Shown one piece after another: positions 14,023 to 63,618 of a DNA stretch of 64,000 nt (its first letter is position 1; every line of letters begins with the position of its first letter). The position numbers were made by a program, and so were the translations under genes. Where the stretch lies: assembly GCA_963920765.1 (NCBI GenBank), contig OY987245.1, positions 21,158,727 to 21,222,726 of the forward strand, read 5' to 3'. This stretch comes from Ulota crispa (lineage: Eukaryota > Streptophyta > Bryopsida > Orthotrichales > Orthotrichaceae). Below the pieces are notes generated by a model that worked only from the letters and a program-made list of their open reading frames with translations, was not told where the DNA came from and searched no databases.

Positions 14023-14026
14023 TTAA

Positions 14027-14319
14027 CCCCTCAAGGCCCAGGCAGCGTATTTTGAGCTGTCTGGTGATTTTGGGCAGGTCACAAATAATGGGTTTTGTAT
14101 TTGTTTTTTATTTTATTTTCACACATGAAGTACCCAGGAGTAGCTTTAAGGTCCAACAATTTTCATAACTTTTGACTACATGGTTCAAAAGTTATGAAAA
14201 TTGTTGGACCTTAAAGCTACTCCTGGGTACTTCATGTGTGAAAATAAAATAAAAAACAAATGTAATACCCATTTTTTGTGACCTGCCCAAAATCACCAGA
14301 CAGCTTGGGCCTTGAGGGA
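14027..14319. mobile_element. TTAA-flanked foldback MITE, near-perfect hairpin
   Basis: The element sits between TTAA (14023-14026) and TTAA (14320-14323). Its ends are CCCCTCAAGGCCCAGGCAGC and GGGCCTTGAGGGA. The two arms, each about 130 bp, are nearly exact complements around a short centre at about 14170, including the TTTTATTTTATTTTCACAC runs and the TCCAACAATTTTCATAAC core. Such a transcript would fold into a long double-stranded hairpin. It belongs to the TTAA group by its ends. Confidence 0.9.
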
Positions 14320-14365
14320 TTAACTTCACTTGGACCTCTTAGTTTTTCTAAACCATGAACGTATA

Positions 14366-14474
14366 CACTACAAGAAACCATGGTATTCTTAACAGAAAAA
14401 TGTGACCTAATTTACAATTCACTGTAGATTAGGTCACATTTTTCTATCAAAAAGACCATGGTTTCCCCATAGTG
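14366..14474. mobile_element. CACTA-type mini-element, 109 bp
   Basis: The ends are CACTACAAGAAACCATGGT and ACCATGGTTTCCCCATAGTG. The flanks are ATA at 14363-14365 and ATA at 14475-14477. A CACTA terminus with a 3-bp duplication defines the En/Spm (CMC) superfamily. The inner arms (AAAAATGTGACCTAAT and its complement) also pair, so the whole copy is a hairpin. Confidence 0.9.
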
Positions 14475-14662
14475 ATAACTTGAATTTTGGTCAAAACAAA
14501 GTATCCCTCTAGAAATGGACTTTGTTGTAATACCTCGGAAGGGTTGGTGTTTTATTTTGGCAAGGAAATATGTTCACCAAGAAACCATGCACCACCATCT
14601 TGCGTTTAGGTTGCCAGGCCCCTCAGCTTGGTCACTTGTAAGTGCATGCAACTATCTAGATA

Positions 14663-15029
14663 AGGTAGTTGCCCCCATAAGCGTGAGTTTAAGCACTTTT
14701 GCATGGTTAGGGTAGTTGGACAAGCGTAAAAATTATATTATTAGATTGAAAACAGAGAACAAAAAACATTAGTTTAGTTTGGGAAGTTATCCACATAGTC
14801 ATGTGTGTGTGGGTATTTTCCAAAGTGCTACATCACTGAAATTGTAAGCACCATGTGTAAGAGATGCTAAAAACAAGGCTTATTGGTTCTTAAATAGTGA
14901 GATGGGTACTCAAAACCGTCATACCAATCACCCATAACCATTACTTAATTCACTCATAAGCATTTGTTTTTTTAATTATGATGTCAGTGACGCCCATGGG
15001 GACGGTCACCCTAATGGGTGTGGCTACCT
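14663..15029. mobile_element. TA-flanked MITE, AGGTAG family D
   Basis: TA at 14661-14662 and 15030-15031 flank ends AGGTAGTTGCCCCCATAAGC and GGGTGTGGCTACCT. The body matches 57574-57967 in the opposite orientation (AACTAATATTTTTTGTTCTC against its complement, CACTATTTAAGAACCAA, CCCATGGGCGTCACTGA). TA target duplications point to a Tc1/mariner-like mechanism. Confidence 0.82.
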
Positions 15030-15031
15030 TA

Positions 15032-16564
15032 CAAGGATTTTGGATGGTTTATAACTTGGATGCCACTAGTTTGTCTGTTTGGAACTTTGTTGTTATTGCA
15101 AGCCCTTAAAATTTTGTTTATTTCAATAATTATTGATGAAAATTGCTGTAGTAATAATAAGTATTTATATTTAGTGTAAAATGTCACGAAATTAGTCTGG
15201 AGTAATTTCAATGCAATATTCAATGTAGTTGTGTCATGTTAAAAAAAACTCCAATTTGATAGAAATTTCCGTTGTAGACCTGAGGCAGATTTTGATAAGA
15301 TATATTGAGGATAGCATTTAGTCATCTAGTGTCTTCGCTACGTATGCAATGTTCTGTCCAAGCGGTGTAGGAAGAATTGCTCACACTAACTATTTCTATA
15401 CTGTACAGTACATCGGCCTTGCTAGGGAGATTGCATACCCAAAATTGCTTTAGTAAACATTAGAAAATTGATACAGTAATCTATAGTATTTCTTATGTTC
15501 CAAGCACTTTGATCAACCAAAGATATCTTAGCATGTTAAACTGAATATTGTAGTTCAATTCTATACCACTCTCTAAATAGTGATTATGAATACAAGCAAC
15601 TTAGCACAAGTAATAGGATGATCTTTCAGTTGTTCCTTTCCAAAGCTCTACCAATCATTTTTGACTTTGATACAGTGCATGACACTTATAACCAACAACT
15701 CCCAATTCAAGTGTTTAAGGCATTGTTAAAAAAAAAGTTATCAAAAATTTGAGTCCATCAAGATGAAGCTTAGGGTTTGTCTCACTTGGTGGTGGAGTTA
15801 CTTTTGAGCTAATGGATATATGTGTTGTGCCTTAATATTTCTTGTTTGGCCAACAATTGTTGATTATAAGTGCCATGTACTATACAAAACAAATAATAAC
15901 AATGTAGCGTCTTCTTGTCCAACGTTTCCTCCAAATGTACAAATGGCATAAAGCATGAGTTCAAATTAAAGATGTGAGGCTCCAAGACAACATCAAAAAC
16001 TTGCCACATGACATAGATTAGAGACATTGCTTTAGCATGGTTGGAGATGAGCCTTGCCATCAATTGGTGGTGTAAAAAATTAGACCGGTTTTTCTCAATG
16101 CTCACAAGTCTCGTTTATTTGTCTTTAAAACCAAATTGGTAATTTTCTTCTACTGCCATTATTGTAAAAGTCAATTACCTCCAAGTTGGGCTTTTCACAT
16201 GTTAGAATCTTTTAATGCCACACAATTATCATTTTGGAGCCTAAAGTATCAATTTTTTGATGTGTTGTTTGAAAGGATGGCATTGTAGCCTTGCATCATA
16301 AAAAAGAGAAGCATCCTCCAACTTTTTGTATTTGAACTCAAATAGATATTGAAAAGTTTCATATCCTTCACAAATTATTGACATTGAGCAACACTAGATT
16401 GTCCTTAAACACCAAAAAGTAGAAATTAAAAGTAAGATTGAAACAATCATTTGAATATAAAAGACTAAGAGAAAGTATATGGATGGAAAACAATTGTGAG
16501 AGTAATGACAATTATAGCTCCCAAATCTATAGTTTTCAACTCTTGTTAATGGTCCAATTGTACT
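15032..16564. other. AT-rich intergenic sequence
   Basis: No gene is seen. The only long open stretch (minus strand, about 15809-16105) shows no recognisable motif, and its composition matches the AT-rich background rather than the genes. Inverted-end elements were not recognised here. Confidence 0.5.
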
Positions 16565-16568
16565 TTAA

Positions 16569-18340
16569 CCCCTTAAGGCCCAAGTGGACCCTCGGGGGCT
16601 AGGTGGGGTTTCAGGCATGTACTTATAGCTAAACTACTTTGTGTAATTTTTTGAAACTTTTATGAAAGATGGGGAATTCAAAGACCTATGTGGGCATCTA
16701 ACTTTTTCTTCATTCCAACATTTATTGAAGAAGTTGTGCATGAATAACTAAAAAACAAGGGAGAATTGGGCAGCTAAAAAAAAACTACATTTAAAAAAAA
16801 TAAAAACCTAAAATTGGTTCTTTACATTTTATATATGAACGAAGCTTTGAATCATTCAGTTCAAATGGATGAGATGAAAATTATGAGAAGTTTTAGTTTG
16901 CGGGTAGGTATGGGACTCCCAAACCTCCATTCTTTTTGCCCTTTGTAAAATTTGGTGCTTTATCTTTTTGAGCAACTTATGTATTTTTTTTTTTACTTTT
17001 ATTTTCCCCAAGTTGTAGTACATTAAGATTCCTTGGTTTTCACCATTTGGATCACAATAGTTCAAATTTCTGAATTTTACGTATACCCTCCAATTTTGCC
17101 TAGTGTATATGCAAAATTCATGACCTTATGGCAATGCAAGATTTTACAAAGTATGATTCACACCTCCAATTCATTTGAAATTTCTCCCACACTTACCTAA
17201 CTTGGTCTTCTACATGGGAAGAAAAAACCTCAACTTTGCGTAGAGCAATTCTTTTGATATAGGAGTTGTCAAAGGCTTCTAAAATATTTTGGCAGCAAGA
17301 AAAAAACTTTTTCTTCACTTTAGATGTCAATATCTCACTCCTCTACTTTTAGAATGAATTGATTTTTTTACACAAGTACCTCCTATAGTCTAGGGCAAGA
17401 TCCTACAGTTGGGTTTTTGAAAAAAGCTTTTTTTCCTACCTTTCTACTGGTGATTGCAAGAAATACTAGTACTATTTTGTGTCTCCATGCTCTCTTGGGG
17501 GTGCTTTTTGGCTTGTAACTTTTGCTCAACAAGTTCTTTTGAGCTGAAATTTTAGAGGAAGGTACATAACATAGTTACAAACCTTCCAAGATTTTTGGGG
17601 GTTTTTTTATATTATTTTATTATTTTTAAACAGCCCCCAAATAGGTGTCTACCTTGGCCATTTTGGGGTTTTTAGTACTATTTTGGGTCCAAAAAAGCAA
17701 ATCTCATGCCACAAATCAAGGAAGTTGTTCATCATAGAGCATCACATGAATGTCTAGAAGGATTCTAGGAAATTGTGAATTCTCTACCTTCTACATGCTC
17801 TCAAAGTGGGCATCCTTTGGTCAAGCATTGGAGAAAGAAAACAAACTTCCCCAAAAAACATCATTTCAAGTGTCTTGAATAGAGCAAAAATGGCCATTTT
17901 TGTTTTATTTTTTGGGTTTTTTTTGTAATTGTTAAAATTGAAAACATGGCAGCCTAGAAGTTTTGGTAATTTCCACTCCACATGCTTGCGTAGTACTCCC
18001 CTCCATTAACTTGCCACATAGTACCACCGACCACTAACATCATTTGAGGATGTGAATTTTTTTTGTCCATCCATTCATTGAATTGCCATTATTGATAATT
18101 GGCCTTCCTAAATGACATGCCATGTGCCTTGTTCCCAATATTTTTGGGATGGGAGGGACGGTTCACATTTCTATTGCAAGGATGTTGTGTAGTACTTGCA
18201 GTGCTACCCATATTACACCCAAAAAGAGGCATTTTGAGACAAAAACATGAAATCTTTCTTGCAATCACCCCTACTCATTCCCCCAAAAGTGGCAGTTTTG
18301 AGTGACTTTCACAAAAAAAAGGAGCTTAGGCCTTTAGGGG
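16569..18340. mobile_element. Large TTAA-flanked element with an internal insertion
   Basis: TTAA at 16565-16568 and 18341-18344 flank ends CCCCTTAAGGCCCAAG and AGGCCTTTAGGGG. The body matches the outer element at 40788-42661 (CTAAACTACTT, AAGTTGTAGT.C.TTAAGATTCCTTGG, CCACACNTACCTAACTTG, TCCTACCTTTCTACT). This copy is interrupted by a foreign 822-bp insertion at 17449-18270. No transposase frame is seen in it. Confidence 0.82.
17449..18270. mobile_element. 822-bp insertion inside a TTAA element
   Basis: The ends are GGTGATTGCAAGAAA and TTTCTTGCAATCACC(C). The 5-bp word CTACT occurs at 17444-17448 and again at 18271-18275. The homologous element at 40788-42661 reads straight through (TTTCTACTCATTCCC, about 42588-42602), giving an empty site. 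Superfamily uncertain. The small hairpin at 63839-63913 has a similar terminus. Confidence 0.8.
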
Positions 18341-18468
18341 TTAAATCCATGTTTATCCATCTACATCCCTCTAACTCTCCACCAACTACTTAGTATTGTT
18401 TATTTTAAAACTAGGCAGTGACTTGAAACCTCATCTTATGGAAAATGGCCTAGTAAAGTTTGTCTTAA

Positions 18469-19006
18469 CCCCTAAATGCCCAATGGGGTAAGGGCAAAAA
18501 ACATATTCATTAAAGAACAATACCTTTGTAACTTCAATCAAGTATGCTTCAAAAGAGAAAACAAGAATTATGAGGTTTGGTAATTAATCATTGAGTCAAA
18601 CATTCAAAAAAAGTTAAGGATTTTTATTTAATGAATTTAGAAGCATTTACCATTTAATATTCATCAAAATTACAAAATTTATTCATAGATATTACAATTT
18701 GATATGATTGGTTAAAAATAGACATTCTATCCTAAAACTCAAAAATGAAATATTTTTGAAGGAGAAAACATCATTAGTTTCCCAAAATAGTAAATTTTGT
18801 AACACTAGCAAATATTGAAGTGTATCTTTAAAAAATTCTCCTTGGTGGAGTTTAACTTGGATTGACATGCTTCAATTGGGTTGGAAAGTAGACTTGCTTT
18901 CCCATATAGAAACAAATTTTATTTTTTCAAAAAATGTTTTTTTTCATCTCAGGCAACCTGGAAAAATTGCCAGTGACCAAAAAATGGTCAATTGAGCATT
19001 TAGGGG
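18469..19006. mobile_element. TTAA-flanked MITE, 538 bp
   Basis: TTAA at 18465-18468 and a mutated TTGA at 19007-19010 flank ends CCCCTAAATGCCCAATGGGG and GAGCATTTAGGGG. A sister copy is at 28289-28829; shared words include AGTAACACTAGCAAATATTG, TTTAATGAATTTAGAAGCAT and TTCTCCTTG.TGGAGTTTAA. Confidence 0.88.
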
Positions 19007-19488
19007 TTGAATATCTAAAATAGTAAAACAATTGCTAATTTTAAGTAGTCATTAATTACTTCCCAATCACACCAAACTTTCCTCTATTTTTAGATACTTC
19101 ACTTTCAAATCCGATAAGATATTTGGCTATTTCTACCGCCTCACTTTTCTATTAAACATTTGTTCCCTTCCAATTTAATTATAAATTTCTAGGCCTTCTT
19201 TTGGTGTCCTCTTTATAAATGAGCATTCTTCCTAAAATCATTAAAATTTTTATAAGAATTCAAGTAATTCAAACCATTATTAATTGTGTTGTCAATACAA
19301 ATTTAATATTGTGATGATTACATTTTTTCTTTGTGGCACTTTGGTTTTTAGTGTGACCATAAATTTCTTTGCAAGCACAAAGTGCACTACATTCCTACAT
19401 ATATGAGACCATGTAATTTTTTTATTGTTTTAAACGTGCCTTGACAAGTCTATTAACTCCTTCAATTCTCATTATAATTATGCACTTC

Positions 19489-19774: not shown

Positions 19775-20684
19775 AATTCATCATTAGCACTTTCACTTCC
19801 ATCTACCATCTCAAGAATATATACCATTTTCTTAGTATCTTTTTATATATTACCAACAATTAACTATGCATATCTTACTACATTAGGTTTATTTTTCAAT
19901 ATCAAAAATAAAATAGTAAATTTTTCCATATAATTATCAAATCTACTAACACACTGACTAGCTATGTACCTACAAGGAAGTCTATAGCTAAGCACAAATT
20001 TAAAGCACTTAGTCATCCATCTTGAATCCTCTCCCTCCTTCAAAACATGCATTTGTCTAAAAAGAAGTTACACAAAATGCTCCATTCTCTAGGTCCTTTT
20101 ACTTATTGCAACAAATACATGCCTAAAGGAGAAGAAATTGGGTTGGTTGACTATGTGAATGGGTGTATTAAACACTTTGTTTGAAAGTTGACTAATCAAA
20201 AATCCTCAACATGTACAATAAGTAGCTATATTACAAAAAGCTTTGTCTCTATTACACTAGCTTGCTTTTCAAGTAAGGTACCTAAGCTTACTCAAACTTC
20301 CTAATGATAACATCTTTTAATACAAAAACCTTCTCCCATGCATTCCAAAACCAGTAATTATGCAATTAGAGAGTATTTAATGAAAGAGGGTTGAGTTTGA
20401 ACATCAAAAGTAGAAGGGACTTATTTTGTGGTTTTTGTGCTATTTTAAAAATACAAAAATTGCAACAAGGACCAATTTTACAAACAAGAAACAGTTTTAC
20501 AAACAAGAATTGATTATGCAACAAGGACCAATTACCATGTAGCAAAATAAGTCTCTATCATTTATAAAGTTTCAAACCGTGCAAAGTGCCACCTATTTTG
20601 CCCCGCATGGCTACAAATCTTGCCCTAACAAGCTCAACCTACAGCCACTTACATGGTAGAATAGAAGGCTCTTTGCATGCTCTA
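19775..20684. other. AT-rich intergenic sequence
   Basis: No gene or clear repeat boundary is seen. A short direct repeat (ACAAACAAGAA...ACAAACAAGAA and GCAACAAGGACCAATT twice) lies at about 20461-20535. Confidence 0.5.
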
Positions 20685-20686
20685 TA

Positions 20687-21099
20687 AGGTAGTGTGCTCT
20701 AAAATGGCTCCCGCATTTTGAACCCTCCAAGTAGGTTGTTGTGAAATGGTGCAGTGGGTGTTCTTAAATTTGCCTCTTACATTCATTGAATGTGTGGAAG
20801 AAAAGTTGTTTTTAATTGCAAGAGCCAATCATTCTCCTTGTTTTCCCAAATCTCTTCACAACTTGCAAGTGAATGGTTCTTGGAAGGTCTAGGGTCATAA
20901 ATAGGAACCTATGACACATGCACTTTGAAAATTCATAAGTAACTCAAAAATACTTCAAAAAACATGAAACAACTTGTGTTACATTCTACATCATTCTATT
21001 CTCTTTGTCTAAAAAATGAAGTAAAAATCCTCCCATCTACAGAAGATCATGAAAAAAAGGAATGAGCCCTTAGATGGTCCGTTTTTGAACCTCCTACCT
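20687..21099. mobile_element. TA-flanked MITE, AGGTAG family C
   Basis: TA at 20685-20686 and 21100-21101 flank AGGTAGTGTGCTC and GAACCTCCTACCT. The right end repeats GCCCTTAGATGGTC of the other family C copies. It ends about 80 bp before the GC-rich promoter of the dehydrogenase gene. Confidence 0.72.
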
Positions 21100-21179
21100 T
21101 AATACAAAGCCTTTGAACCAACGCTTTTTTCTTGACAAAATTTTGCAAGATCTGACAAATTTCAGCCCCTAAATTCTCT

Positions 21180-21692
21180 TCCCTCCCTATATCCTCTAAA
21201 TAAGACACCGAAGTACCGAAGTACCGGAGTAGTCTCTGTCACTCAGAAAAAACGCTGCTTTGAACCCAACAGAGCAGGCCAGGGACCGGCTGGAGGCCCC
21301 GGAACCGGCCAGGCCAGCTCGAAAATACAAGCGTCCCAACCGCCAAATCTCTGCTTTTCATCCGAGGACATGCATTTCCACCACTTGTCATGCACACAAA
21401 GCTCCTCATAACAATCTCAGACGTCGGGACTGTTATGAACCAGCCACGTCCACCGCCATGCAAAAACACCCGTCGTCTCGCTTCCGACGCCGCCATGCCC
21501 CACCCCACCAGCAACAACCCTCGGCTCATCTGCAAATCTGCTCATCTGCTGTGCCTTCAAATCCCTGCTTCTATCCACCGCTTCTCTCTCTCATCTCCAT
21601 CACAAACACCAGCTTTTACATACAGCGCAGCTGAACTGAGCAACATTCTATCGTAGCTGGCAAGATCGACATTGTTGCAGTACTCATCAGTT
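21180..21692 (+). promoter_or_regulatory. GC-rich promoter and 5' UTR exon of the dehydrogenase
   Basis: Base composition rises sharply at about 21240-21600. CTATATCC and CTAAATAAG words near 21187-21205 are possible TATA elements. A three-times ACCGAAGT-like tandem (ACCGAAGTACCGAAGTACCG) lies at about 21208-21228. An ACGT-core word (CCACGTCC) lies at about 21444. A good donor (GTAAGT) at 21693 and an acceptor at 22328 imply a 636-bp intron in the 5' UTR. The long open frames inside this stretch are rejected as coding because they end at the donor and do not join the dehydrogenase frame. Confidence 0.55.
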
Positions 21693-21892
21693 GTAAGTCT
21701 CTCTGCCCACATTCACAATCAGTCACTTCTTCCCCAATTCCCTCTTCTGTGTCAAACTCCGCATCTCCACTTGCAGATTCTTTACCCTTTTTCCCCTTCT
21801 AAGTTTTGCCCTTTTCACAATGTGATCTATCAGACAGTCTTTGCTGCAGTCAGTGCATGTATCCCTGCTCAGTCTATCGATTCTTGTCTTAA

Positions 21893-22132
21893 CCCTTAAA
21901 GGACCGAGCTATTATAATACATAGTATGTATTTTGTACGCTGCTGTATAACTGGCATTTGCTACCAACAAAGAGTTTTAACTTGAGATCCTGACTACCTC
22001 ACTGAAACAGCATTGATCTATATTCTAACTTCTTTGTTGATCTCAAATATAATAAAGGTGTGGATGCACTTCAAATACAAGAAAAGTACACCGTATTGTA
22101 CTGGTCGCAAAGGGCTGCTCGGTTGTTCAAGG
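21893..22132. mobile_element. Decayed TTAA MITE, family B, in the 5' UTR intron
   Basis: TTAA at 21889-21892 is followed by CCCTTAAAGGACCGAG. The body carries the family B core in common with 27110-27335 and 46860-47093 (TTTGTTGATCTCAAATATAATAAAGG and the complement of CTTGTATTTGGAGTGCATC). The right end (GGTTGTTCAAGG-TTCAA) is degraded. Because it lies between the inferred donor 21693 and acceptor 22328 it would be transcribed and spliced out. Confidence 0.7.
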
Positions 22133-22335
22133 TTCAATACTGCGTCTCGATTTTAGTCATGTACTTGCAGAGCAGTGGCCGCTTTAAACCGAGAATCACT
22201 GTTCTTGTGCAATACTAGGTTTAGTGCTGTTAGAAAGTGGTGAATGAAAGCAAAATGACAAACGCCGTGGGTCTTTTCTTTGTAGGAAGGTGATACTTTA
22301 CACCAGAAGTGAATTTGGTGATTTTTAGGTATACA

Positions 22336-25300
22336 ATGGCGGAATTCCGGCCGGCACAAGAGCAGGAGCAGCATCCCGGAGAGGAGCATTTGATGCAGCC
22401 GGTTCCACGTCACTGTGGCGACAATTACAAGGCCGCTGGCAAGCTACAGGTGCGTACTACGCCATATTCATTAAATTGGGAAAACCAGATTCCCAAGTTG
22501 TACCCTAATGCTCAGTTTAAGGTTGTCACCTTAATCCCAAAATGTTACAAAATTCCCAATTTAATGAATATGGTGTTGTAGAATAGGAACTTAAAACCCT
22601 GCCTTTTCAACAGCCAGTGCGATTGTTGATTGTTCTGACTTTCTTTATAGGGCATTGTGTACGTCGAATGTGGATGGGCTGTGAATTGTGGGTCATAAAG
22701 TTTATTGCTTTAATTTATGTTTAGTTTCTTGGGTTTTTCACTGGGGTCACTTGAAAGTTTGGAAGAGTCTACCTAATTTAGCAAATTTTGCATGATTTTT
22801 GTTACAGACTAACAACACCATATTAGGTAAATTGGGAAAAACGATACATTCTAGGACTTTCACTATTTTTGCCATTATGTGTGTATTATCATGTCACAAA
22901 AAAACAAGCGTGCATTTTCTTTTACTATAGTGAAATCTCAGTGATGGCCTCCAAGAACTTTGATAATTACAACTTTTGAGCAACAGCTATGTCTACATTT
23001 ACTGATGTGGGATTAAGAAGGTGGAGTACAAAACGGTTCCTCCGTTTTTTCCGAATTTACCGTAACTCAAAGAAGATCTTTGAAACTCTTTCATAGATTT
23101 TGCTTCAATTTTGAAAAAGCGGACATCTGGCCATATTTAGTGATGGGGAGATTCAATGGTTGCAGGGGAAGGTTGCTTTGGTGACGGGTGGAGACTCAGG
23201 CATAGGACGTGCTGTAGGCGTGCTCTTCACTCGAGAAGGAGCAACGGTGGCCTTCACGTATGTCCGTGGTGCGGAAGAAAAGGATGCCGAAGACACGACT
23301 AAATTACTCAAGAGGTTCAAGACAGACAGCGCTGTTGGGGATCCTTTGGCTATTCCTTGTGATTTAGGGTTTGACGAGGAGTGTCAGAAGGTCATCGACA
23401 CTGTGGCGAAGAAGTATGGTCGTATTGATATTCTAGTGAACAACGCTGCTGAGCAGCATATTGTGGAGAATATCGAAGATCTTACGGCAGAGCAGGTGGA
23501 GCGAACGTTTCGCACCAATATTTTTGCACACTTCTTCCTCGTGAGGTATCAACCCTTTTCCCCTTCTCGCCATAGCCATAGTCGTTCAAAAAGAACCTCT
23601 ACGAAGTTGTTTGAGGTTACCAACTCTGAAACATTTTGCAGGATACTTCTGATAAATTTTTGTATCTACCAGATTCTTTTTCAGGATTCCAATCACATTC
23701 ATAACAGAAGTTATGTCTACATTCTGGCTGATTAACCCCAACCTTTTAAAAGCTTGCAACTGTATAGGAAAGTTATGCATAATCACATTTGGCTGTTGTA
23801 CACAAACTGATATCTCAATTTCTTACAAGGGTACACTTTCTTTTAGTGACGAAATTAGTACCTTTAATAATCTAATTTTTCGGTTTTTTTTTTTTTGTGT
23901 GAATTAGACACGCTTTGAAGCATATGAAGGAGGGTAGTTGCATTATCAACACGACCTCAATAAACGCATTCAAGGGCAACGCACCTTTGTTAGACTACAC
24001 ATCCACGAAAGGTGCCATTCTGGCGTTTACTCGAGGCCTGGCTCTTCAGCTCGTCAAGCGAGGCATCAGAGTAAATGGTAAGTTGATTCGTTAAAACATC
24101 CTTGCACATAGAAAATTTGAATGTATCTGAATCTGCAGCATTATTGTATACACATTGATTTTCCTTGATGTTATTGGGCTAACCTGCTCTCTTGCTATAT
24201 TGTACTAACTTATAATAACTTTGGAGGAAGAAATCCAATATATTACAAGATTTATTCTTCCCGACCAATACTCTAAAGACCCCTACCCTGATGCCGGCTT
24301 CAGGGGCCTGTTTGAAGACCGTCATAAATCACAAACTTTATGACTTTGAGAAGAACAGTTGTGAACTATTTTTTCAAGCCCTATTTTCTCTGAGTCTGAT
24401 CAGTTTTTGGAATTCTCTAGTTGACGATCTCATAGACCTTTTTGTTTTCTGTGCTTTGGATAAGACTAAGCAGATCCTCTACACAAATTTCATTTCAATT
24501 TTGAATATACTGCTTAGATATTTGCAAAGTTAATAAGATTCTGTGGGTAATTTTTTTTGTGCAGCGGTAGCCCCAGGTCCAATCTGGACACCCCTGATTC
24601 CTGCATCAATGGGCCAAGGCGCACCTGACACGATGAAGTCGTTCGGCTCCCAGACACCAATGGGTCGCGCTGGTGAACCAGAAGAAGTCGCCACGTCATA
24701 CGTCTTCCTTGCTTCAGAGGATTCGTCCTACTTCACCGGCCAAACCCTCCATCCAAACGGTTTGTGCTGTTCATTAGCCTGACTTAAAGTCTCTCATGAA
24801 TTGCTACATATCTGGTAACACTGCTTTGCTTGCAATAAAACTCTTCCCAATTGATTAACCCCTTAAGGCCCAACGGGACCAAAACTGTCCATCCTTGTTT
24901 GTAATTTGGGATGTTTGTAATTTGGGATGCCTAAATTTTCTTCATGATTAATTACAATGATTATTATATTCTTAAAGTTCTTGTTGAATTCTTGTTTTAG
25001 TATCAAAAGTCTGATTTTGAAAATGACTAGTTATGGTTTTTCTATTGAAGATTTTGCGCAAGGGTGTCCATTGCAAATCTTCACTTTCTAGTGTTGAGAG
25101 CTTTTGGAAATGAGCCTAAAGTATACTAGAACTTGGAGAAACAATCACATTAGAAACTTGATTTAAAAAGTTGTAGAGTAGCTTTTAAGAAGCCAAAAAT
25201 TGATTATGGTTACACATGTTGTACTTTACATACTCATATATTTTTGGTATCCTCAATTTTAAATTTGAGATGTGAAAAGAGGATTAAAAAGACTTCAAAT

Positions 25301-25574
25301 CACTTTCACAGTTTCAACACCCTCTTGATCAAATGTTATAATCTCTCAATCCATAAGTGATATTGTTGTGTTTTCTTTTCCTATGTGATCTCTAACATAT
25401 CTAGTTTGAAATTACAATTTTTTTTAAATTAATACAACTTATCAAAATGTTAACATTTTGTTCATCCAAGAACAGAATCTGAGATACTCGGGAAAGAGCA
25501 TGGGCCTTGAGGGGTTAACCTACTTTTGACAATCTTATCTGGTGACTGCAGGTGGGATGGTCGTAAATGCATAA
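22336..25574 (+). CDS. Classical short-chain dehydrogenase, glucose/ribitol dehydrogenase-like
   Basis: Five coding exons join in frame to 293 residues: 22336-22449, 23166-23545, 23908-24077, 24565-24759 and 25552-25574. The NAD(P)-binding motif TGGDSGIG is at residues 45-52 and NNAA at 130-133. The catalytic tetrad is N156, S182, Y195 and K199 (YTSTK), with the usual S-to-Y spacing of 13. The N-terminal extension (MAEFRPAQEQEQHPG) and the C-terminal GGMVVNA end match the length and layout of plant 'glucose and ribitol dehydrogenase homolog' proteins and bacterial general-stress SDRs, oxidoreductases often linked to seed or desiccation stress. The true substrate is not shown. No targeting peptide is obvious, so a cytosolic enzyme is likely. 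Two introns and the 5' UTR intron carry mini-transposons; the coding exons are undamaged. Confidence 0.93.
22457..22580. mobile_element. Palindromic MITE in dehydrogenase intron 1
   Basis: CCATATTCATTAAATTGGGA near 22462 is matched by its complement TCCCAATTTAATGAATATGG at 22554-22573. The element begins about 7 bp after the intron 1 donor at 22450. The same terminus occurs at 31581-31838, and a solo end (CACCATATTAGGTAAATTGG) at about 22820. Its body is a hairpin of about 55-bp arms. Confidence 0.82.
24859..25514. mobile_element. TTAA-flanked element in dehydrogenase intron 4
   Basis: TTAA at 24855-24858 and 25515-25518 flank ends CCCCTTAAGGCCCAACGGG and GGGCCTTGAGGGG. It fills most of intron 4 (24760-25551). 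Its full-length relative is at 62566-63614, with the order GGGATGCTCAAC / GGGATGCCTAAA, CAAGGGTGTCCA.TGCAAATC and TTCACTTTCTAGTG. It ends 37 bp before the acceptor of the last exon. Confidence 0.9.
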
Positions 25575-25920
25575 ACTGCGAAAGCTTCAACTTACTTGAC
25601 AGGGGGTGCAAGTCTAGAGTTAGTCAGCTTGAAATCATTTTGTATCTGCTCAACTTTGTGTATGGATACAAATAACTTCCCCTTGGGGTTGAAATTTTGA
25701 AAATTCCTCCTTACTGGATTTCTGAGATTGCCCGCTTGTAATCGCCTCCGTGTAATACAAAACGAGAATATACCTTCTCCAAGAGCTGCGATAGTTCTGA
25801 TTCAATTTTAGGGAGTTTGAGCAGCCTTCTCACTACTAAGACCGCGTATACCGGTGCAGCTGCTTGCACTACTGCAAGATGCTTCTCTCAAAAACCTACA
25901 CCGTTTGTGCAACTCGCGAG

Positions 25921-26069
25921 GAGATTATTTGGGTTTACTACACTACCATCACCACATCCAAAAGTGGTAAAATCACTATAATCACTATGCAATTCTTCAA
26001 AGTAGTAGTTACACTCATTTTACCATTTTTGGATGTGTGATGGTAGTGTACTAAACTCAAATAATCTCT
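25921..26069. mobile_element. Foldback MITE downstream of the dehydrogenase
   Basis: GAGATTATTTGGGTTTACTA at 25921 and its near-complement TAAACTCAAATAATCTC at about 26051-26068 frame arms of about 55 bp (CACTACCATCACCACATCC against its complement). It lies about 350 bp past the stop codon, so it may fall in or near the 3' end of the transcript. Confidence 0.8.
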
Positions 26070-26509
26070 TTGTATAGCTCAGGCGCACTGAAAAGATCTC
26101 TGAAGTTTTGGAACACCGTCCTCTATTTCTCATGCTGTGGAAGCCTCTCTTGCAAAAAAATTGTGATTTGATAGTATGGATAGTTCTGTGGAATAACCCC
26201 AAAACCGCTGGAGTATAATCGCCTTGTGATATCTGTTGAAAAACTACTAACCCCAGTGTATTGCTGAACAAGATTAATAATCAATGAAAGTGAAATTACA
26301 AAATCTTTTAGTCAAGAATTCCTCTTTCTTTCCAATGCTTGTTCAACGTCATCCTCATGCCCCTTCCAGCATACGCTGCAAGGCTCTTAATCGGTGTTTT
26401 ATGAAATCTATAAAAGCCATATTCAGCTGAAATATGCCATCCATAGTCTGTAAACAGTGGTCCAATACATTGACCATATACAAGCATTGTCCTTAAAAAT
26501 AAAACTTCA
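26070..26509. other. Intergenic sequence, no gene seen
   Basis: The interval between the foldback element and the next TTAA element is of intermediate composition, with no recognisable coding content on either strand. Confidence 0.5.
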
Positions 26510-26513
26510 TTAA

Positions 26514-26873
26514 ACCCTTAAAAAGGATTGACTCTGAACCCGTGGCTCAGACCTAGGAGAGTGTGCACTGTTCATGGGCAGTGAACAGCTTGTGGCATGT
26601 GTCCAAGAGAGATAATATTCTCCTCAAAAGAAGGAAAAGTTAATAGTGTATCCTGCCCTCACAATAAGGGCAGCACAGACCTTATACATCTCTTTACAAA
26701 TTGGTGTTTAAAAATATGGAGGCATTGAAAGCAACTATTTTTAGCATTCAATGATGCGGCACATCTCTTTGACCACTTTCAAGAAAAAAATTTGAAAAAA
26801 ATATATTTTTTTACCCTCAGGATGTGTTTTTGGCATTGAACGGACAATTTTTGTCCTCTTGGACGGTTAGGGG
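26514..26873. mobile_element. TTAA-flanked MITE, 360 bp
   Basis: TTAA at 26510-26513 and 26874-26877 flank ACCCTTAAAAAGG and GGACGGTTAGGGG. The ends pair only partly, so the copy is old. No sister copy was recognised in the window. Confidence 0.65.
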
Positions 26874-27109
26874 TTAATTAAGCCCAATATACAAGAAAAG
26901 GAATGGGATTTTGACACTATCTATACCCTTCTCTTACAAAGGTTGACTTTATCCAAGCATCATTGTATTGAAATTTGAGGATCATAAAAAATGCATGATC
27001 ACATAAACAATTCACAAGTAAGTAAATCAACATGAGTTCACATGTCTTTGTGTCATCAAATAAAATAAGTTTTGTGGATAAAATATTCAATATAATAGCA
27101 CAATCTTAA

Positions 27110-27335
27110 CCCCTAAACGACTGAGTGGCCCTTTACGACCAGTACAATACGGGATACTTTTCTTGTATTTGGAATGGATTCACACCTTTACTACATTTGA
27201 GATCAACAAAGAAGTTGGAGAATAGATCAATGGGATTCTAGTGAGCTACTTGAGATCCCAAATTAAAATTTCTTATTGGTAGCAAATGACAATTATACGT
27301 CAGCATATATTCTATGCCCTATGGTCGTTTAAGGG
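27110..27335. mobile_element. TTAA-flanked MITE, family B
   Basis: TTAA at 27106-27109 and a mutated CTAA at 27336-27339 flank CCCCTAAACGACTGAGTGG and ATGGTCGTTTAAGGG. The core (CTTGTATTTGGAATGGATTC, ATTTGAGATCAACAAAGAAG, GAGATCCCAAATTAAAAT) is shared with 46860-47093, 47098-47306 and 55839-56259. Confidence 0.87.
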
Positions 27336-27448
27336 CTAAGGCATGGATTGCTTTATTGCCTATCACTAATAATGATGCTATCAAAGATGGGAAACAAAGT
27401 GTCACGGGCTTGTCGTAAATGGGTTTAAGTGGGGGTATCCACTAAATA

Positions 27449-27588
27449 AGGTAAGAGGTTCATAAAATGACCATGTTCTAATTGCATCTCTTAGAATGAA
27501 TGACATGTTCCTTGAAATATGTAACATTACCAATTTACCATTGATGAGGTAGGTATGGTTGAAGGGTCGGTTTATGGACCTCCTACCT
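27449..27588. mobile_element. Short TA-flanked family C derivative
   Basis: TA at 27447-27448 and 27589-27590 flank AGGTAAGAGGTTCATAAA and TTATGGACCTCCTACCT. The body is far shorter than in other family C copies, so it is an internal deletion derivative. Confidence 0.65.
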
Positions 27589-27590
27589 TA

Positions 27591-28284
27591 GTCACGAATC
27601 CCTTAGGCACGTATGCGTATTCTAATGGGGACCACTTCAGTGGCCCCTTAGTCATTTATCTAATAGGACCTCAAATTTAGAGATTGAAGATATGTGAAAA
27701 TGCTTCTCATGCAGTATATATAAATTCGGGTTTTCATTTATTTGTAATTAAATCCAGTGCTAGTTTTCTAACCTTTTATGATATGGATTTCCAAAATTGT
27801 ACTCTAAAAATGTTTTATAGCTTAGGATGTATAATCGTGTTTTACTTTGAAAACTTGATTTCTCTTGTTTTTTAAAAAAAAAACCATTCAAAAAGTAAGG
27901 CAAAAATCTTACATCACCATCACAATAAAACTTAATATTTTGAACCTTAATGAATGTGAGATTTTGTGAAAGTCATTGATTTTTCAATCCCTATTAATTT
28001 TTAGGTGGAAATTTAAACTACCTGCTTTGTCTTTATTCCATATATGTTGGTAATTGCAATGATAGATCCAGTGTATTGATATATCCATGGAATGCAAGTT
28101 CAAATTTTCTGTTAGGGAACCATCAAGTTAACTATTCTTTTGGATTGGAAAAGTGAAGTATATCCGTATTTATGAAAACCTAGATTATTTCTAATCTTTA
28201 TCAAATCTTGAAAATTCAAAGATGATAGCAATGCACTTAAACAAAACAACCTTTAGTTTCTAAAATAATATTCTTTTAAACCCT
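27591..28284. other. AT-rich intergenic sequence
   Basis: No gene or repeat boundary was recognised between the family C derivative and the next TTAA element. Confidence 0.5.
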
Positions 28285-28288
28285 TTAA

Positions 28289-28829: not shown

Positions 28830-28833
28830 TTAA

Positions 28834-29965: not shown

Positions 29966-29967
29966 TA

Positions 29968-30412: not shown

Positions 30413-30433
30413 TACCCCTGATATTGTGATGTG

Positions 30434-30447
30434 CCCCCCCCCCCCCC
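30434..30447. repeat. Poly-C tract (14 C)
   Basis: An uninterrupted run of 14 cytosines stands 20 bp outside the end of the family D element, in otherwise AT-rich DNA. Length may be uncertain because homopolymers are prone to assembly error. Confidence 0.9.
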
Positions 30448-46855: not shown

Positions 46856-46859
46856 TTAA

Positions 46860-47093: not shown

Positions 47094-47097
47094 TTAA

Positions 47098-47306: not shown

Positions 47307-47356
47307 TTAAAGTAAAGCAACCTAAATGGACTATCTAGTTTAGGTCTATATATATT

Positions 47357-48442: not shown

Positions 48443-50089
48443 ATGGCTACAGCAATGCAGCGTGCTAAGCTCGGAGCCCAGGAAGCCAAGATGGATGGCA
48501 AGGGTGTCGGAGGCCAAGCAGTTGAAGGGCTTGAAAACATGGTAACTGGTAGAGATGATGGTCTACCAGGAAACGCTCGTCCTGGAGCTTATGGCAACAC
48601 TGGAACCGGCACTGGAGCTTACGGCAATACTGGAACCGGCACTTTCAATAACGAAAGAGGAGTGTTTGATCACGATCGTGATCGTCAGGGAGGCGGAATC
48701 CTCGGAGGGTTGACGGGTCACCATAATGGAGGTGGGTTGGGTCACACCGAGGAAGAAATGGCCCGTTTGAGGACGAAGACCCACATCACAGGCGAAGGAG
48801 ATGCGTACTGCCCCAACCCCAACGTCAGAGATTTGGTAAGCAAAAAAAGTTGGCTCATTTGAATGGAAATATGCGTCTGAATTTGTGATTTATCTTTTGC
48901 TTCTATAAATTATTTTATCTATATTTGATGACCCTCTGTTGCACGAGTAACCAGCTCTGCCCTTCGATCATATCCATACATGATACTTGCCTCAAAATAT
49001 AGTTATCATACACAGTACTAAATTCTACATATATTAAGTTTTCTCGACCGATATGTCGCTTTTATCTATTTGACATGATGCTCCCATATATTTGCTGGTA
49101 TTTTGAACATGGATGTCTATAACCATGGACAGTCGTCTGTGAGTGTACATGGCGACATCTCATATATTTTTTGGATTCGAGTACTGTGGTTTAAGTGTAA
49201 TGGTTTTAATGCCTGTCTGCAGCCCAAGGAATTCGAGACAAGGGTGCAAGTTGTCCAGCGGTACCCTGAGATGAAAACCGTCGAGAAGACGGACTTCGTC
49301 AAAGAAATTCACCACGAAGAGCGATTTGTCATCGTTCAAAGGACGAAAGTCATCCACGACGACATCGAACGCATCGACCGGATCCCGGTGGTGCGACAAG
49401 TTCCGAAGACAAGAATCGAAATAACATACCGTGTGGTGCCGGAGGAGCGTGAAATTTTTGACATGGTGCAGCAGGTGGACTATGTTGACGTACCCCGGAT
49501 TGAAATGGTTCCTCGTATTATTACAGAGGATGTCGAGGAGCGAGTGATGGTGCCCACGGTTGTGGAAATGCCAGTCACACGCATGGTGGAAGTGCCCACT
49601 GGAAACTATTGCGAGGCGCCTGTTGGATCGTTCGTTACTCCTGGTGATTTCAACTTGGCTAATCAGCATGGACATCATCTGGGTGGCATGGGTACCGGTG
49701 GTGGTATGGGTACCGGGGGTGGCATGGGTACTGGGGATGGCATGGGTACCCGGGGTGGCATGGGTGGCATGGGTACCGGGGATGGCATGGGTGGCATGGG
49801 TACCGCGGATGGCATGGGTACTGGCGGTGGTATGGCTACCGGTGCTGGCATGGGTCCCGGTGTTGGCTATGATAGAGGTACCGGTGTTGGTACGGGACTT
49901 GGTGCCGGTACCGGTACCGGTGCAGGTGGTCTTCTTCACAGAAACAGATCTAGCAGCTCTACATCGGACGACGATGAGGAAGAATCGGGTGACTACGTTG
50001 GAGGAGCTCTTCCAGATGGAACAACCGGCGTCGCTCCTGGTGGACGTCGCAAGAAGAAAAGCTTGTTGCGTAGAGTTATGCACAAGTAA
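48443..50089 (+). CDS. Alveolin/articulin-like Val-Pro-rich protein 1
   Basis: Two exons (48443-48835 and 49223-50089) encode 419 residues. Layout: a hydrophilic N-terminus (MATAMQRAKLGAQEA) with a Gly/Thr/Asn repeat at about 45-70; a conserved block GHTEEEMARLRT...AYCPNPNVRDL (about 100-131); a Val-Pro and charge-rich domain at about 132-257 (PKEFETRVQV, YPEMKTVEKTDFVKE, then repeated EVP, RIPVV and MVEVP words); YCEAPVGSFVTPGDFN (about 258-273); a Gly-Met-Thr repeat (about 284-367); an acidic Ser tract (SSSSTSDDDEEES); and a basic end (GRRKKKSLLRRVMHK). There is no signal peptide or membrane segment. Val-Pro repeats bracketed by Lys/Glu resemble alveolins and articulins, filament proteins of the protist cortex; the plant function is unknown. 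The GC-rich coding sequence creates long antisense and +1 open frames that are shadows. Confidence 0.85.
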
Positions 50090-51980: not shown

Positions 51981-51998
51981 AGAGTCGAGTGAAGTAGA

Positions 51999-54097
51999 AT
52001 GGCTACTGCAACTGAACGTGCAGCTTTGGGTGCTGAGGAAGCGCGCTTGGAAGGCAAAGGTCCTGCAGGTAGAGCAGCGGACGCGGCCAAAGCTGCAGCA
52101 ACTGACCGGGTCGATCGCCCAGGAATGGCTCCCTCTAATGCTGCTGCTGTTGGAGATCGAGGTCTCCTAAATCACCATCAACAGCTCCATGGCGAAATGC
52201 TGGGTCATACTGAAGAGGAAATGGCGAAGTTGCGAACCCGCACACTTGTCACTCATGAGGGCGAGGCGTACTGCCCCAACCCTAATATTCGAGACCTCGT
52301 AAGTTCCGTTTTCCAATGCTATATTGAAAGTTTGCTTGCCTGGGTTTCACGTTTGACTAACTAGTAACAGTCATGTTTGTGAATATAGCTTGTTTGGTTA
52401 TAGTCATAGTCGTCAACATGGCTTGTGTAGTAATAGCCACAGTAGTCAACATGGCTTGTTTGGTAATAATCACAGTCGTCAATGTGGCTTATTTCTGAGT
52501 CCCAAACTTGTGGTATTCAAATGCTTAGAAGCCTAAAAAGTTCACATTGTTGTAATGGCGAATATCAGAGCGTCAAACCTTTGATGTTTCAAGTGCTGAG
52601 AGTTGAAATAGTACGCTTGTTATAGTTCGGAGAGACTTGGAATTTCATCAATTATATCATAATCAGCTTATGAATGAGTATGATGTTTTGAGTAGTTTAG
52701 CTTGTGCTAACAGTGGTTACCCATATTCGAAAATGCCTACGGTTCTGACAGCTATGAGTCTTTGGTTGCAGCCCAAGGAGTTTGAGACGCGGGTACAAGT
52801 CATCCAGCGCTACCCGGAGATGAAAACGGTGGAGAAGACGGACTTCGTCAAGGAAGTGCACCATGAGGAGCGGATCATTGTTGTTTCCAAGACGAGAATC
52901 ATCTACGACGAGATTGAGAGGGTTGACCGCGTGCCTGTTGTCAAGGAAGTGCCCAAGACTAGAGTCGAGATTGTGTACCGCGTGGTTGAAGAGGAGCGTG
53001 AAGTGACCGAAATGGTCCCTGAAGTGGACTTCATCGATGTGCCTCGAATCGAACAGGTAAAGCCAATTTCAACTTATCATGGAGTTTTTTTTTTATATTG
53101 CTGTTATGTACATGCTCAAACGGTTATGTTTCTTTATAACTACAAATGTCATAGTTTTATTATGTTAATACTAGCTGTTGGTGCTTGCTGCACTACGAAT
53201 TCACCATCAGAATTTTTTAGGATTTTCATATGTTAGCTTGAATGCAAAGCAAAATTTTCAACAAGTGTTCACATTGTATCGATGTGTTAATATCAGAAAG
53301 ACTGAACATGTGATATCACTGAGATTGGATATGTGATGTTACAGAGTGCACTGTGATTTTAGTAGTGTGATAAGTGTACAAATCTTTGCCAGATTAAATT
53401 GAGCTTTCCCGTTTTATTGACACTCTTAGGTGCCACGCGTCATCACCGAGGATGTGGAAGAGCGGGTCGTGGTGCCCGTTGTGAGGGAAGTTCCAGTCAC
53501 TCGTATGGTTGAAGTTCCCACTGGAAAGTAAGTGTTCATCTCACTCTAACAAGTATACGATAATGATTTCTACAGTTTCTAAATCTTGCTGTCATACTGG
53601 TGTGTTTGGAGTGTTCAGCATTGTATAAACCAGGACATGCTAAATCTCAGAGTTCCAAAAACTAGTATAAATCCAAGGTTTTAACTTGGCGGCTGAATCT
53701 GCACAACTTCTCTCATTGTGATGAATGTGAGGTTTTTCTTGTGATTCTGAGTATCTGGGCTGGTTTTTATGTTTTGCGATGTTACAGTACTTTTTCTTAA
53801 CTCAAGGCTGTATTGTATTTATGCAGCTACTGTGAAGCGCCGGTCGGAGAGTTTGTGAACCCCGGAGATTTCAATCTGCTCCACCATGGCCATGGCCATG
53901 ACCACAAGCACCGTCAGCAGGGTGCTCTCGGAAACCTTCTGCAACGAACCACGAGCTCCTCCTCCTCGTCTTCATCGTCCTCCGACGAGGGAACTAAAGT
54001 CCGTGATGGTAGTCTAACGCACAATGCAGATGAAACCATCAGCCCTGGAGGACACAAGAAGAAACCTGGGCTATTGCAGAGGATCATTCATCACTAA
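51999..54097 (+). CDS. Alveolin/articulin-like Val-Pro-rich protein 2
   Basis: Four exons (51999-52298, 52772-53056, 53430-53527 and 53827-54097) join in frame to 317 residues. It is the tandem paralogue of the gene at 48443. It shares MATA.xRA.LGA.EA, the GHTEEEMAKLRT...AYCPNPNIRDL block (about 68-100), the Val-Pro/charged domain (about 101-228: YPEMKTVEKTDFVKE, VPVVKEVPKTRVEI, VPVTRMVEVPTGN) and YCEAPVGEFVNPGDFN (about 229-244). In place of the Gly-Met repeat it has a short His-rich stretch (HHGHGHDHKHR), then a Ser run and DEG acidic tail, and a basic end (KKKPGLLQRIIHH). The N-terminus is Ala-rich and LEA-like. Two of its introns are missing from gene 1. No targeting signal is obvious. 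Confidence 0.87.
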
Positions 54098-55811: not shown

Positions 55812-55838
55812 TAGTATGCTCTAAAATAGTTACTTTAA

Positions 55839-56259
55839 CCCTTAAACGTCCCTAGGGCATAGGAGATACATTGTTGTATAACATTTATATGTCCTAAATA
55901 TCCCTAGAACATAGTAGATACATTGTCATATAACCCTTAAACGTCCCTAGGGCATAGGAGATACATTGTCGTAAAACCCTTATATGTCTTAAAAATTCCT
56001 ACTGTAGGACATATTAGATACATTGTCATATAATCCTTAAACGTCCCTAGGGCATAGTAGATACATTGTTGTATAATTGTCATTTTGTATCATTAAGAAG
56101 TTTTAATTTGGGATCTCAAATAGCTCACTAGGACAACATTGATCTATTCTCTAACTTGTTTGTTGATCTAAAATGTAGTAAAGGTGTAAATCCATTCCAT
56201 ATACAAGGAAAATTCCTCATATTGTATTGGTCTCAATGGCATGCTCAAACGTTTAAGGG
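55839..56259. mobile_element. TTAA element, family B, with amplified terminus
   Basis: TTAA at 55835-55838 and a mutated TGAA at 56260-56263 flank CCCTTAAACGTCCCTAGGGC and AACGTTTAAGGG. The left end is followed by a tandem series of about 50-bp units, in which CCTTAAACGTCCCTAGGGCA recurs at about 55841, 55938 and 56036 with diverged units between. After that comes the normal family B core (TGGGATCTCAAATAGCTCAC, ATTGATCTATTCTCTAACTT). Confidence 0.85.
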
Positions 56260-56639
56260 TGAAAAGTTGCTTTGCCTTTTCATGGACTTTTTGAGATAAG
56301 TAAATTTTTTTGTAAAATTTTCAATCAAAGAGAAATACATGCCAAATGTAACACTTTTTCTTTTCTTTTTTTTCTTGAAGCATTATTGAATTGTTGGGTG
56401 AATTTTCAAATTTTTTTGTAGTGAACACATACTCCCTCTCTCCCAATATAAAGCTCCAAATTAGGCATAGTTCTTGTTCCACTAAAAAGCTCCCTTTAGC
56501 TAATTTCAATTTTTGAGAAAGCCATTCTCATGTCCAATGATCTCATGGGTGCAAGTTAAAGCTATTAAAGAGCATTCCTCTCCTAACAAGCTTGGCCTTG
56601 CCCATATGAGGTATCATTGTTGTTACTAATCTTTAAACC

Positions 56640-61430: not shown

Positions 61431-61858
61431 ATTTGTAAGGGAAAAGTCGACTTAATTATTGCACATGGCTAGAAGTTAATTTGTGCATCTATTTTTAGAA
61501 AACATAAATTAGAGAGGTTTGATATAGGGGCCATTGGGCCAAATGATCAATCATGTGATTCTAATAACAAAATTTCCATGACAACGTAGGAGAGTTGAAT
61601 GGGCAAGAGGTCCAATTATACTATTAACTTACATAATATATTGATTTTCTTTTGGAAACATGTTGCAATTGCACATATAAGACATTAGTGAGAGTATCAT
61701 GAACTTAACACCATGATAAAGACTCAAAACCACGCCAAAGATCTAAAATGACCATTGCACCTAAAATCATTGCAACTAAGGATAGCAACATGAGATATCA
61801 CTAAATAATACAATGATGGATAACGAAAAAAGAATAGAAAATACATCTACATATTTAA

Positions 61859-61982
61859 CCCCTATGTGCCCAAATACACTCTTTTTACATGAAAAATCTA
61901 AACATGTTTCGAAGTTAGCAATAATCGAATATGAACTTCCAAATTAGTTTTATTTATTTATTTTAGTGCAGGTGCTAAGGGG
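61859..61982. mobile_element. Small possible TTAA element
   Basis: TTAA at 61855-61858 is followed by CCCCTATGTGCCCAA. A possible right end AGGTGCTAAGGGG meets TTAT (61983-61986). The pairing is poor, so this is a weak member of the TTAA group. Confidence 0.4.
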
Positions 61983-62285
61983 TTATATATGACTAAACTC
62001 CTAATGTTAATTGGGGAAAAGTTCTCGATTTTGGAACTTCTGAATTTTTCATTTCTAAGAATTTTGAGGTGATTTAGAGTGAATTTTAAGATGATTTCTT
62101 CAAGACCTTACATCAATGATGAAACACCTTGAAGGAATTATCAAAAAATTCATTTTAAATCATCCAAATATTCCCACAAATGTAAAATTTCATTATCCCA
62201 AAATCTATTTTAGGAAAGTGTTTTTCCCAAATTAACAAATTAGGTTCTAATTACATAATTTGCATGAATGTGTTTTTTTTGCTCT

Positions 62286-62535
62286 AAACGCGATATTTAT
62301 TAATTTGGGAAAAATGGTACATTTTGGGACTTTCAGGAAGTGAGTCAGGAAGTTTGAGGTGATCACCTCAAACCGACATGTGCCCTCACTTGAGCGGAGG
62401 GATTTGCGAGAGAAAAAATCTTAGTGGCTCAAATTGAATATGATACCTTCAAATCTGGTTTTAAAGTAACTTTTTGGGTTTGAGGGGAAATAAATTGGGA
62501 CCCTTGTTTTTCCCAAATTAACAAATATCACGTTT
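62286..62535. mobile_element. Palindromic-ended MITE, 250 bp
   Basis: AAACGCGATATTTATTAATT and its near-complement AATTAACAAATATCACGTTT are the ends (29-bp inverted repeats with three mismatches). The GGGAAAAA.GGTACATTTTGG follow-on is shared with the solo end at about 22840. A TTTTTCCCAAATTAACAAAT word also occurs just outside at about 62221. Confidence 0.78.
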
Positions 62536-62565
62536 CTAGTAACTTGTTTATACTAAAGCTATTAA

Positions 62566-63614
62566 CCTCTCACCGCCCAAGGGGTCCAAATTGGGCTTCT
62601 CTAAATTTTAAACAGGGATGCTCAACCTTTCTACAAGATTTTTTTAGTGATTATTATTATTTTTAAACTCTTATTGAAATCTAGTTTCAACATTAGGAGT
62701 CTAATTTTGGAAATGAATTAAAGTGATTTGTCTATTCAAGATTTTGTGCAAGGGTGTCCAGTGCAAATCTTCACTTTCTAGTGCTAAAGGCTCTTGGAAA
62801 TGAGCTTCAAGTACACTAGAACTTGAAGAAAAAATCACATTAAAAATTCAGTTTAAAAAATTTTAGAATAAATTTTGAGAAGCTATAAATTGATTGGGGT
62901 TAAGCACGTTATACTTTACATATTCATATTTTTTTGGTACCCTCAATCTTAGGTTTGAGATGCAAAAAGAGGATTGAAAGGCTTCAAATCAATTTTGCAA
63001 TTTTAACCCCTAAACGACCACAGGGAACCGTAAAGTCTTAGCCGTATCATAATTCTACAGTGACTCAAATCTGATTTTTGCTCTTTTCTTACTGCGGATT
63101 GTGAATCAGAGCGGCTAGATGAGAGCACTTGCTCTTGGCACTCCAGCAGCGGGTTCATTTCAAGGATCCATTGCAGGGTTTTGTAAGTCGCAGATACGCT
63201 CCAGCTACGTATTTATAGCCCACCTCCAATACAAACGCTTTGCAAAGTCGGAAAACCAATCACAGAAACATGATGAACATTGCAAAAGGTGGAGACCAAC
63301 AACAATACACAACCCTCAAAAATTCAAGCGAAACCCAAAACAACATCCCTAAATACGAAAAAAATACCCTATTTTGGCTGCAATAGCACGTTGTGTTGTT
63401 TAGGGGTTAACACCCTCATGATCAAACATTATAATCTTTCAATCCATAAATGATATTGTTGTGATTTCTTTTCCTATGTGATCTATAACATGTCTATTTT
63501 GAATTTGTACAATTGCGCTTCAAAGAAATTTGATATGATTGATCAAAATGCCGGCATTTTGTTCACTTTCAAGAAAATTCTAAGATACTCCAAACTACCA
63601 TGGGCGGTGAGGGG
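62566..63614. mobile_element. TTAA element with a nested TTAA element
   Basis: TTAA at 62562-62565 and 63615-63618 flank CCTCTCACCGCCCAAGGGG and GGGCGGTGAGGGG. Without the nested copy it is about 645 bp and aligns end to end with 24859-25514 (656 bp). Confidence 0.92.
63007..63406. mobile_element. Nested TTAA element, 400 bp
   Basis: Intact TTAA at 63003-63006 and 63407-63410 flank CCCCTAAACGACCACAGGG and GTTGTTTAGGGG. The interior is GC-richer than other copies (ACTCCAGCAGCGGG) and has a 77-codon open frame without motifs. The paralogue at 24859-25514 shows the empty site at about 25314-25323. Confidence 0.93.
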
Positions 63615-63618
63615 TTAA

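Follow-up and report, generated by a model that had tools for sequence, protein, structure and literature searches.

TTAA-flanked miniature elements and diverged piggyBac transposases in a probable moss genome

Elements with C-rich ends in the window

The 64,000-nucleotide stretch of DNA analysed here, referred to as the window, carries a dense set of short elements that are bordered by TTAA and have C-rich ends of the form CCCYTWAA. We read them as miniature inverted-repeat transposable elements (MITEs) of the piggyBac superfamily. Using self-BLAST, alignments, and listings of ends, 15 elements were bounded on both sides, in agreement with the original prediction of at least fifteen. They measure 217 to 1780 bp, a narrower range than the 120 bp to 1.9 kb first proposed. 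The proposal that several unrelated bodies share these ends was borne out, as the elements fall into seven body families (F1 to F5 and two singles). Among their 30 flanking tetranucleotides, 24 were TTAA and 6 were one-base variants of it. The inner motifs said to follow the ends, GGCCCA and CGACC, were both present.

Exact TTAACCCYTWAA ends occurred 18 times in the window, compared with a mean of 0.15 and a maximum of 2 in 100 dinucleotide shuffles, and all 18 lay on the 15 bounded elements. The shorter pattern TTAACCCYT occurred 25 times (shuffle mean 2.03, maximum 5). The assembly holding the window (274.8 Mb, 157 contigs) is probably that of a moss. Its contig C4 encodes the C-terminal domain of LEAFY, a streptophyte marker, with residues KPKMRDYVHC and GAWCQAC, which we take to be DNA-binding residues of the moss type. 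Genome-wide, TTAACCCYTWAA was found 43,275 times (21,637 + 21,638), against 1,067 (545 + 522) for the reversed control. Together, the shuffles and the reversed pattern rule out a chance origin of the end motif. At two ends per element this count extrapolates to about 21,000 elements, or to about 35,000 if the window's ratio of 15 elements per 18 strict ends is applied. Within the window, 9 of 30 TTAACCC sites had no partner (9230, 13186, 23732, 26877, 33013, 45898, 50872, 61855, and 62903) and may be chance occurrences or decayed ends.

The elements are listed here without strand assignment. F1 is found at 18465-19010 (546 bp), whose left end agrees at 15 of the 16 bases after TTAA with a transposase-bearing locus, L022, and at 28285-28833 (549 bp). 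F2 is found at 16565-18344 (1780 bp), where comparison with other F2 copies makes 17449-18270 look inserted, and at 40877-41828 (952 bp), which has CTAA as its left flank and apparently lies within another F2 copy running from 40784 onward. Positions 17449-17816 of the longer F2 element match 7424-7792 of a second transposase locus, L012, outside the transposon there. The F3 elements at 24855-25518 (664 bp) and 62562-63618 (1057 bp) are paralogues, the latter interrupted by a single element at 63003-63410 (408 bp including both TTAAs). In the uninterrupted copy, the site at about 25313-25316 reads TTTCAACACC. The other single element, 14023-14323 (301 bp), has the ends TTAA-CCCCTCAAGGCCCA and TTAA-TCCCTCAAGGCCCA and a long hairpin as its body. 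This hairpin makes up most of the element, with 121-bp arms (14055-14175 and 14185-14305) that are 97% complementary around a 9-bp spacer.

F4 elements lie at 21889-22137 (249 bp, with a degenerate right end, TTGA) and 27106-27339 (234 bp, with a right flank of TTAG read inward), and an F5 element lies at 35218-35465 (248 bp, right flank CTAA read inward). An F4-type element at 55835-56263 (429 bp) has a tandemly repeated left terminal region. The repeat, 55836-56073, holds 2.5 copies of a unit of about 100 bp and is the seed of a small satellite. At 46613-47310, three elements of two families stand end to end, each neighbour having a TTAA in common with the next: F5 at 46613-46859 (247 bp; the TTAA at 46856-46859 also begins the following element), F4 at 46856-47097 (242 bp), and F4 at 47094-47310 (217 bp).

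TTAA target sites and their duplication

Flank conservation was examined using copies of F4, with 47094-47310 as the query for a genome-wide search. This gave 45 matches from the best 40 of 3,537 first-look candidates. Thirty-nine stretches were taken (20 + 19), of which two partial matches (L051 and L066) were excluded to leave 37 copies. For five of these (L050, L052, L054, L055, and L067) the BLAST interval was too short and the ends were re-read by eye, by 1-2 bases. TTAA stood on both flanks in 30 of the 37 copies, with a one-base change on one side in the other 7. Changes affected the outer base at 3 of 74 flanks, the middle bases at 3 of 148 positions, and the inner base at 1 of 74. None of the 37 copies had an identical non-TTAA word on both sides that could reveal the duplication size. 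The copies differed from their majority sequence by a mean of 5.2% (range 2.1-8.1%), a value that gives no unbiased age because they were chosen by similarity to the query.

These flanks bear on whether the elements could instead be Tc1/mariner-type MITEs, ending ACCC...GGGT and duplicating TA at a strongly preferred T-TA-A target. Such a duplication would leave the same letters as a duplication of TTAA, and mariner-type DDE_3 domains are abundant in the genome (134 matches). However, with a plain TA target the outer base should be free to vary, and it was kept at 71 of 74 flanks, as the original prediction had argued from the window. Transposase-bearing copies with such ends, described below, encode piggyBac and not mariner proteins, mariner copies not having been screened for these ends. 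We therefore consider a mariner origin very unlikely.

Joined-flank queries (31 in total, 30 for individual elements and 1 for a three-element chain) were used to look for empty sites, and three insertions could be read cleanly. The filled site of the nested element at 63003-63410 reads GCAATTTTAA[element]TTAACACCCTC. Four uninterrupted F3 paralogues provide its empty site: one intact TTAA is present in L009 (GCAGTTTTAACACCTTC) and L022 (ACGGTTTTAACACCCTC), while 25280-25350 and L023 span the site with a substituted target. The second insertion, at 1629-7184 of L073, is a 5,556-bp span that contains a transposase and is flanked as CCTCC-TTAA[element]TTAA-GTAAC; the paralogous empty site in L018 reads CCCCTTAAGTAAC, with a single TTAA. 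The third is a 939-bp MITE at 112-1050 of L017, filled as TTGGCC-TTAA[element]TTAA-GGTC and empty in L009 (8081-8230) as TTGACCTTAAGACC. At all three, a single TTAA became two. Junction matches of 46856-47097 and 47094-47310 were discarded as self or neighbour matches, and that of 40877-41828 was too diverged or ambiguous for its target to be read.

The predicted duplication of TTAA was thus seen at empty sites, although the formal separation from a TA duplication could not be made: for an element ending in A...T the letters alone cannot split the two, and the 4-bp reading therefore leans on transposase identity. The same sites speak against PIF/Harbinger (Tourist-like) MITEs with a 3-bp TTA or TAA duplication. 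Tourist MITEs do use TAA/TTA (PMC10004981, in the portion available to us), and Harbinger-type DDE_Tnp_4 domains are abundant here, with at least 150 matches from 150 candidates scored. Yet a passage from one TTAA to two runs against a 3-bp TWA duplication, and a 3-bp direct repeat does not yield TTAA-CCC...GGG-TTAA with symmetric inverted ends, making this origin extremely improbable.

The end-to-end arrangement at 46613-47310 recurs elsewhere. Matches to the junction TTWARGGGTTAACCCYTWAA numbered 688 genome-wide, with 0 for the reversed control, and 6 of the 37 F4 copies abut another end. Random choice of TTAA sites predicts about 356 junctions (21,100 squared over 1.25 million TTAA sites, a site total scaled up from 246,603 bases). 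As the excess is only about twofold, no special back-to-back mechanism is claimed; uneven insertion alone may account for it.

piggyBac transposases and their ends

The genome that holds the window matches the piggyBac transposase domain DDE_Tnp_1_7 (PF13843) at no fewer than 120 places, the strongest with E 1.3e-73; 0 of 14 control genomes did so. This count is a lower bound, as 116 of 528 candidates were scored. Transposase matches were distributed across contigs C1 to C11 and MITE copies across most of them, which argues against a contaminant contig. Two pairs of matches with equal scores lie in opposite orientation 15-20 kb apart (C7:18203169-18204302 and C7:18223004-18224137; C2:36765124-36766008 and C2:36779670-36780554), which suggests inverted segmental duplications.

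Three transposases compared with solved structures in the PDB matched only piggyBac of Trichoplusia ni (6x67/6x68) and piggyBat of Myotis (9c0f), with best E values of 4.1e-20 for L024, 2.6e-24 for L019, and 1.9e-29 for the metagenome protein P0018. When six moss pieces were aligned with five other proteins, the first two catalytic Asp residues proved invariant in all 11 sequences. The third Asp (GVDxxDQ) was kept in L019 and L011, while three other moss pieces stop short of that position. A Cys-rich tail was visible in P0018, P0020, and L011. Alignment rows from moss or moss-like sequences were 35-54% identical to P0018, marking several lineages. Used as protein queries, L025 matched 17 proteins and L024 matched 16. 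All of these contain PF13843; most are 45-81% identical and on short contigs, with a few at about 30%. In L012, a Gln/Glu-rich open frame of 430 amino acids (5563-6852) precedes the transposase. It has no Pfam match and is possibly an N-terminal part or a second gene.

The original prediction had proposed searching the genome for piggyBac transposases whose copies carry the ends seen in the window, and homology breakpoints in two pairs of transposase-bearing paralogues provide such copies. L009 and L018 are 90.5% identical over 5,029 bp. Their alignment starts exactly at the left TTAA/TTCA and ends one base beyond the right TTAA, and the flanks are unrelated. For L012 and L022, alignments stop 2 bp inside TTAA/TCAA (1530/7492) at one side and exactly at 7273/2039 at the other. 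The transposase-bearing copies bounded here measure 5.0-5.7 kb, with breakpoints at TTAA-CCC ends. These breakpoints are a stronger link between ends and transposases than the bracketing of transposases by facing ends, for which 26 stretches (20 + 6) were examined at a threshold of at least 11 of 16 bases matching between the facing ends.

End sequence seems to follow transposase lineage. P0002-like genes (L009, L018, L014, and L017) occur with CCCYTCAYYGCC-like ends, L012 and L022 with CCCCTAAATGCC, and P0018-like genes (L013 and L073) with CCCTTTARNGACC or CCCTCTAAC. The likeness of F1 to L022, together with the resemblance of F3 ends to those of L014, makes a pairing of MITE families with transposase lineages suggestive, and it is from such ends that we infer which lineage would move which family.

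Transposase identity also bears on Kolobok MITEs, which belong to another superfamily with the same 4-bp TTAA duplication. According to the part of PMC9587614 available to us, Kolobok termini take the form 5'-RR...YY-3', whereas the elements described here have 5'-CC...GG-3'. The transposases that carry such ends are piggyBac, no search having been aimed at Kolobok transposases. A Kolobok origin is exceedingly improbable.

Transposase domain, end sequences, and empty sites each support the assignment to piggyBac, and several results weigh against it. Most transposase matches contain stops, with only 10 of 120 rows stop-free inside the matched stretch, and none of the matches to PF13843 could be established as an intact autonomous copy. 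In L024 the third Asp is replaced by Asn. Facing ends bracketed 12 of the 26 transposase loci, but the back-to-back control gave 6 of 26; many loci thus lack recognisable ends of their own, and facing-end similarity was not relied on as proof of autonomous elements. Ends of the CCCCT type carry one extra C relative to the superfamily terminal motif CC[C/T]T (given in the consulted part of PMC2872659), while CCCTT ends fit it. Among the 31 joined-flank queries, 7 had a match across the junction and 24 had none, and three of the 7 are the cleanly readable sites described above. In L072 the junction of L073 is spanned but no TTAA is preserved, and the junction match of L026 8149-9065 was too diverged or ambiguous to read.

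Considering all of this, we put at roughly 95% the probability that the window elements are non-autonomous piggyBac-superfamily MITEs in a nuclear genome, mobilised in trans by several diverged lineages. The MITEs would keep just the C-rich terminal repeats required for movement, and the transposases acting on them would reside in elements of roughly 5-6 kb elsewhere in the genome. By the established chemistry of piggyBac, a three-aspartate (DDD) transposase would excise the element with TTAA overhangs and join it to a staggered target TTAA, leaving TTAA on both sides, and excision could be seamless. The domain, the ends, and the TTAA target with its duplication are all observed in this genome.

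Neighbouring genes, precedents, and meaning

Other features share the window with the elements. Judged by their translations, the open reading frames at 54-5058 resemble a degraded Ty3/gypsy retrotransposon whose C-terminus is chromodomain-like. Two tandem related genes (48437-50089 and 51993-53236) are about 73% identical at the DNA level over 287 bp, and one of them includes a Gly-Met rich repeat built on a 9-bp unit (49680-49867).

The likeness to the piggyBac superfamily, familiar chiefly from animals, comprises the DDE_Tnp_1_7 domain, D,D,D motifs, a Cys-rich C-terminal tail, the TTAA target and its duplication, and short C-rich terminal inverted repeats. The differences are the plant host, ends that are often CCCCT, and the presence of several lineages. 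The bounded transposase-bearing copies also exceed the 2.4 kb of piggyBac itself (as stated in the portion of PMC2874221 available). Among known MITEs, the closest comparison drawn was with the piggyBac-derived CMITEs of corals (PMC2872659, excerpt), which are likewise TTAA-flanked, have little but their ends in common with autonomous copies, and form tandem arrays. Those arrays were ascribed, in the same excerpt, to replication slippage, whereas the chain at 46613-47310 joins different families at common TTAAs.

A streptophyte carrying many piggyBac lineages had been predicted to be new or little described. The lineages are present, but novelty for land plants did not hold. In the parts of these sources available to us, piggyBac entries appear in a table of PMC4438587, among angiosperm MITEs in PMC10004981, and in the C-Fern repeat table of PMC6890710, with a statement in PMC2874221. 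These concern the same superfamily in plant hosts and, as far as the excerpts extend, are lists or counts without transposase copies, matching ends, or empty sites. For mosses, the accessible text of a study of Physcomitrium patens transposable elements (PMC7466625) names mariner elements and has a count of 0 for 'piggybac'; PMC10619864 speaks of 'piggybacking' of gene expression; and PMC5253467 has piggyBac only in a reference. In the sections seen, PMC5505980 (2017) treats piggyBac as an insect vector, a system yet to be tested in Physcomitrella, and PMC10794571 describes its use in plants as still limited. By title and start of abstract, no description of endogenous piggyBac in mosses was found among the Creative Commons-licensed papers covered, which is weak evidence of novelty given that limited scope. 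The superfamily is thus known for land plants and little described there, and the present case is notable for its host, load, and lineage diversity.

More broadly, we lean towards the view that piggyBac has undergone an old and diversified radiation in mosses, in which several transposase lineages with their own ends account for some 20,000-35,000 mostly miniature elements in a 275-Mb genome. It would then be a leading source of MITEs in this plant, and the superfamily would have a branch in land plants that has yet to be described. The insect-derived piggyBac is a standard vector for seamless excision; transposases native to mosses, together with their matching ends, would offer starting material already adapted to plants. 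The many insertions at TTAA in this genome are also a natural record in which target choice can be studied. If other bryophytes share this piggyBac load, the usual view of which transposons give rise to plant MITEs would need amending.

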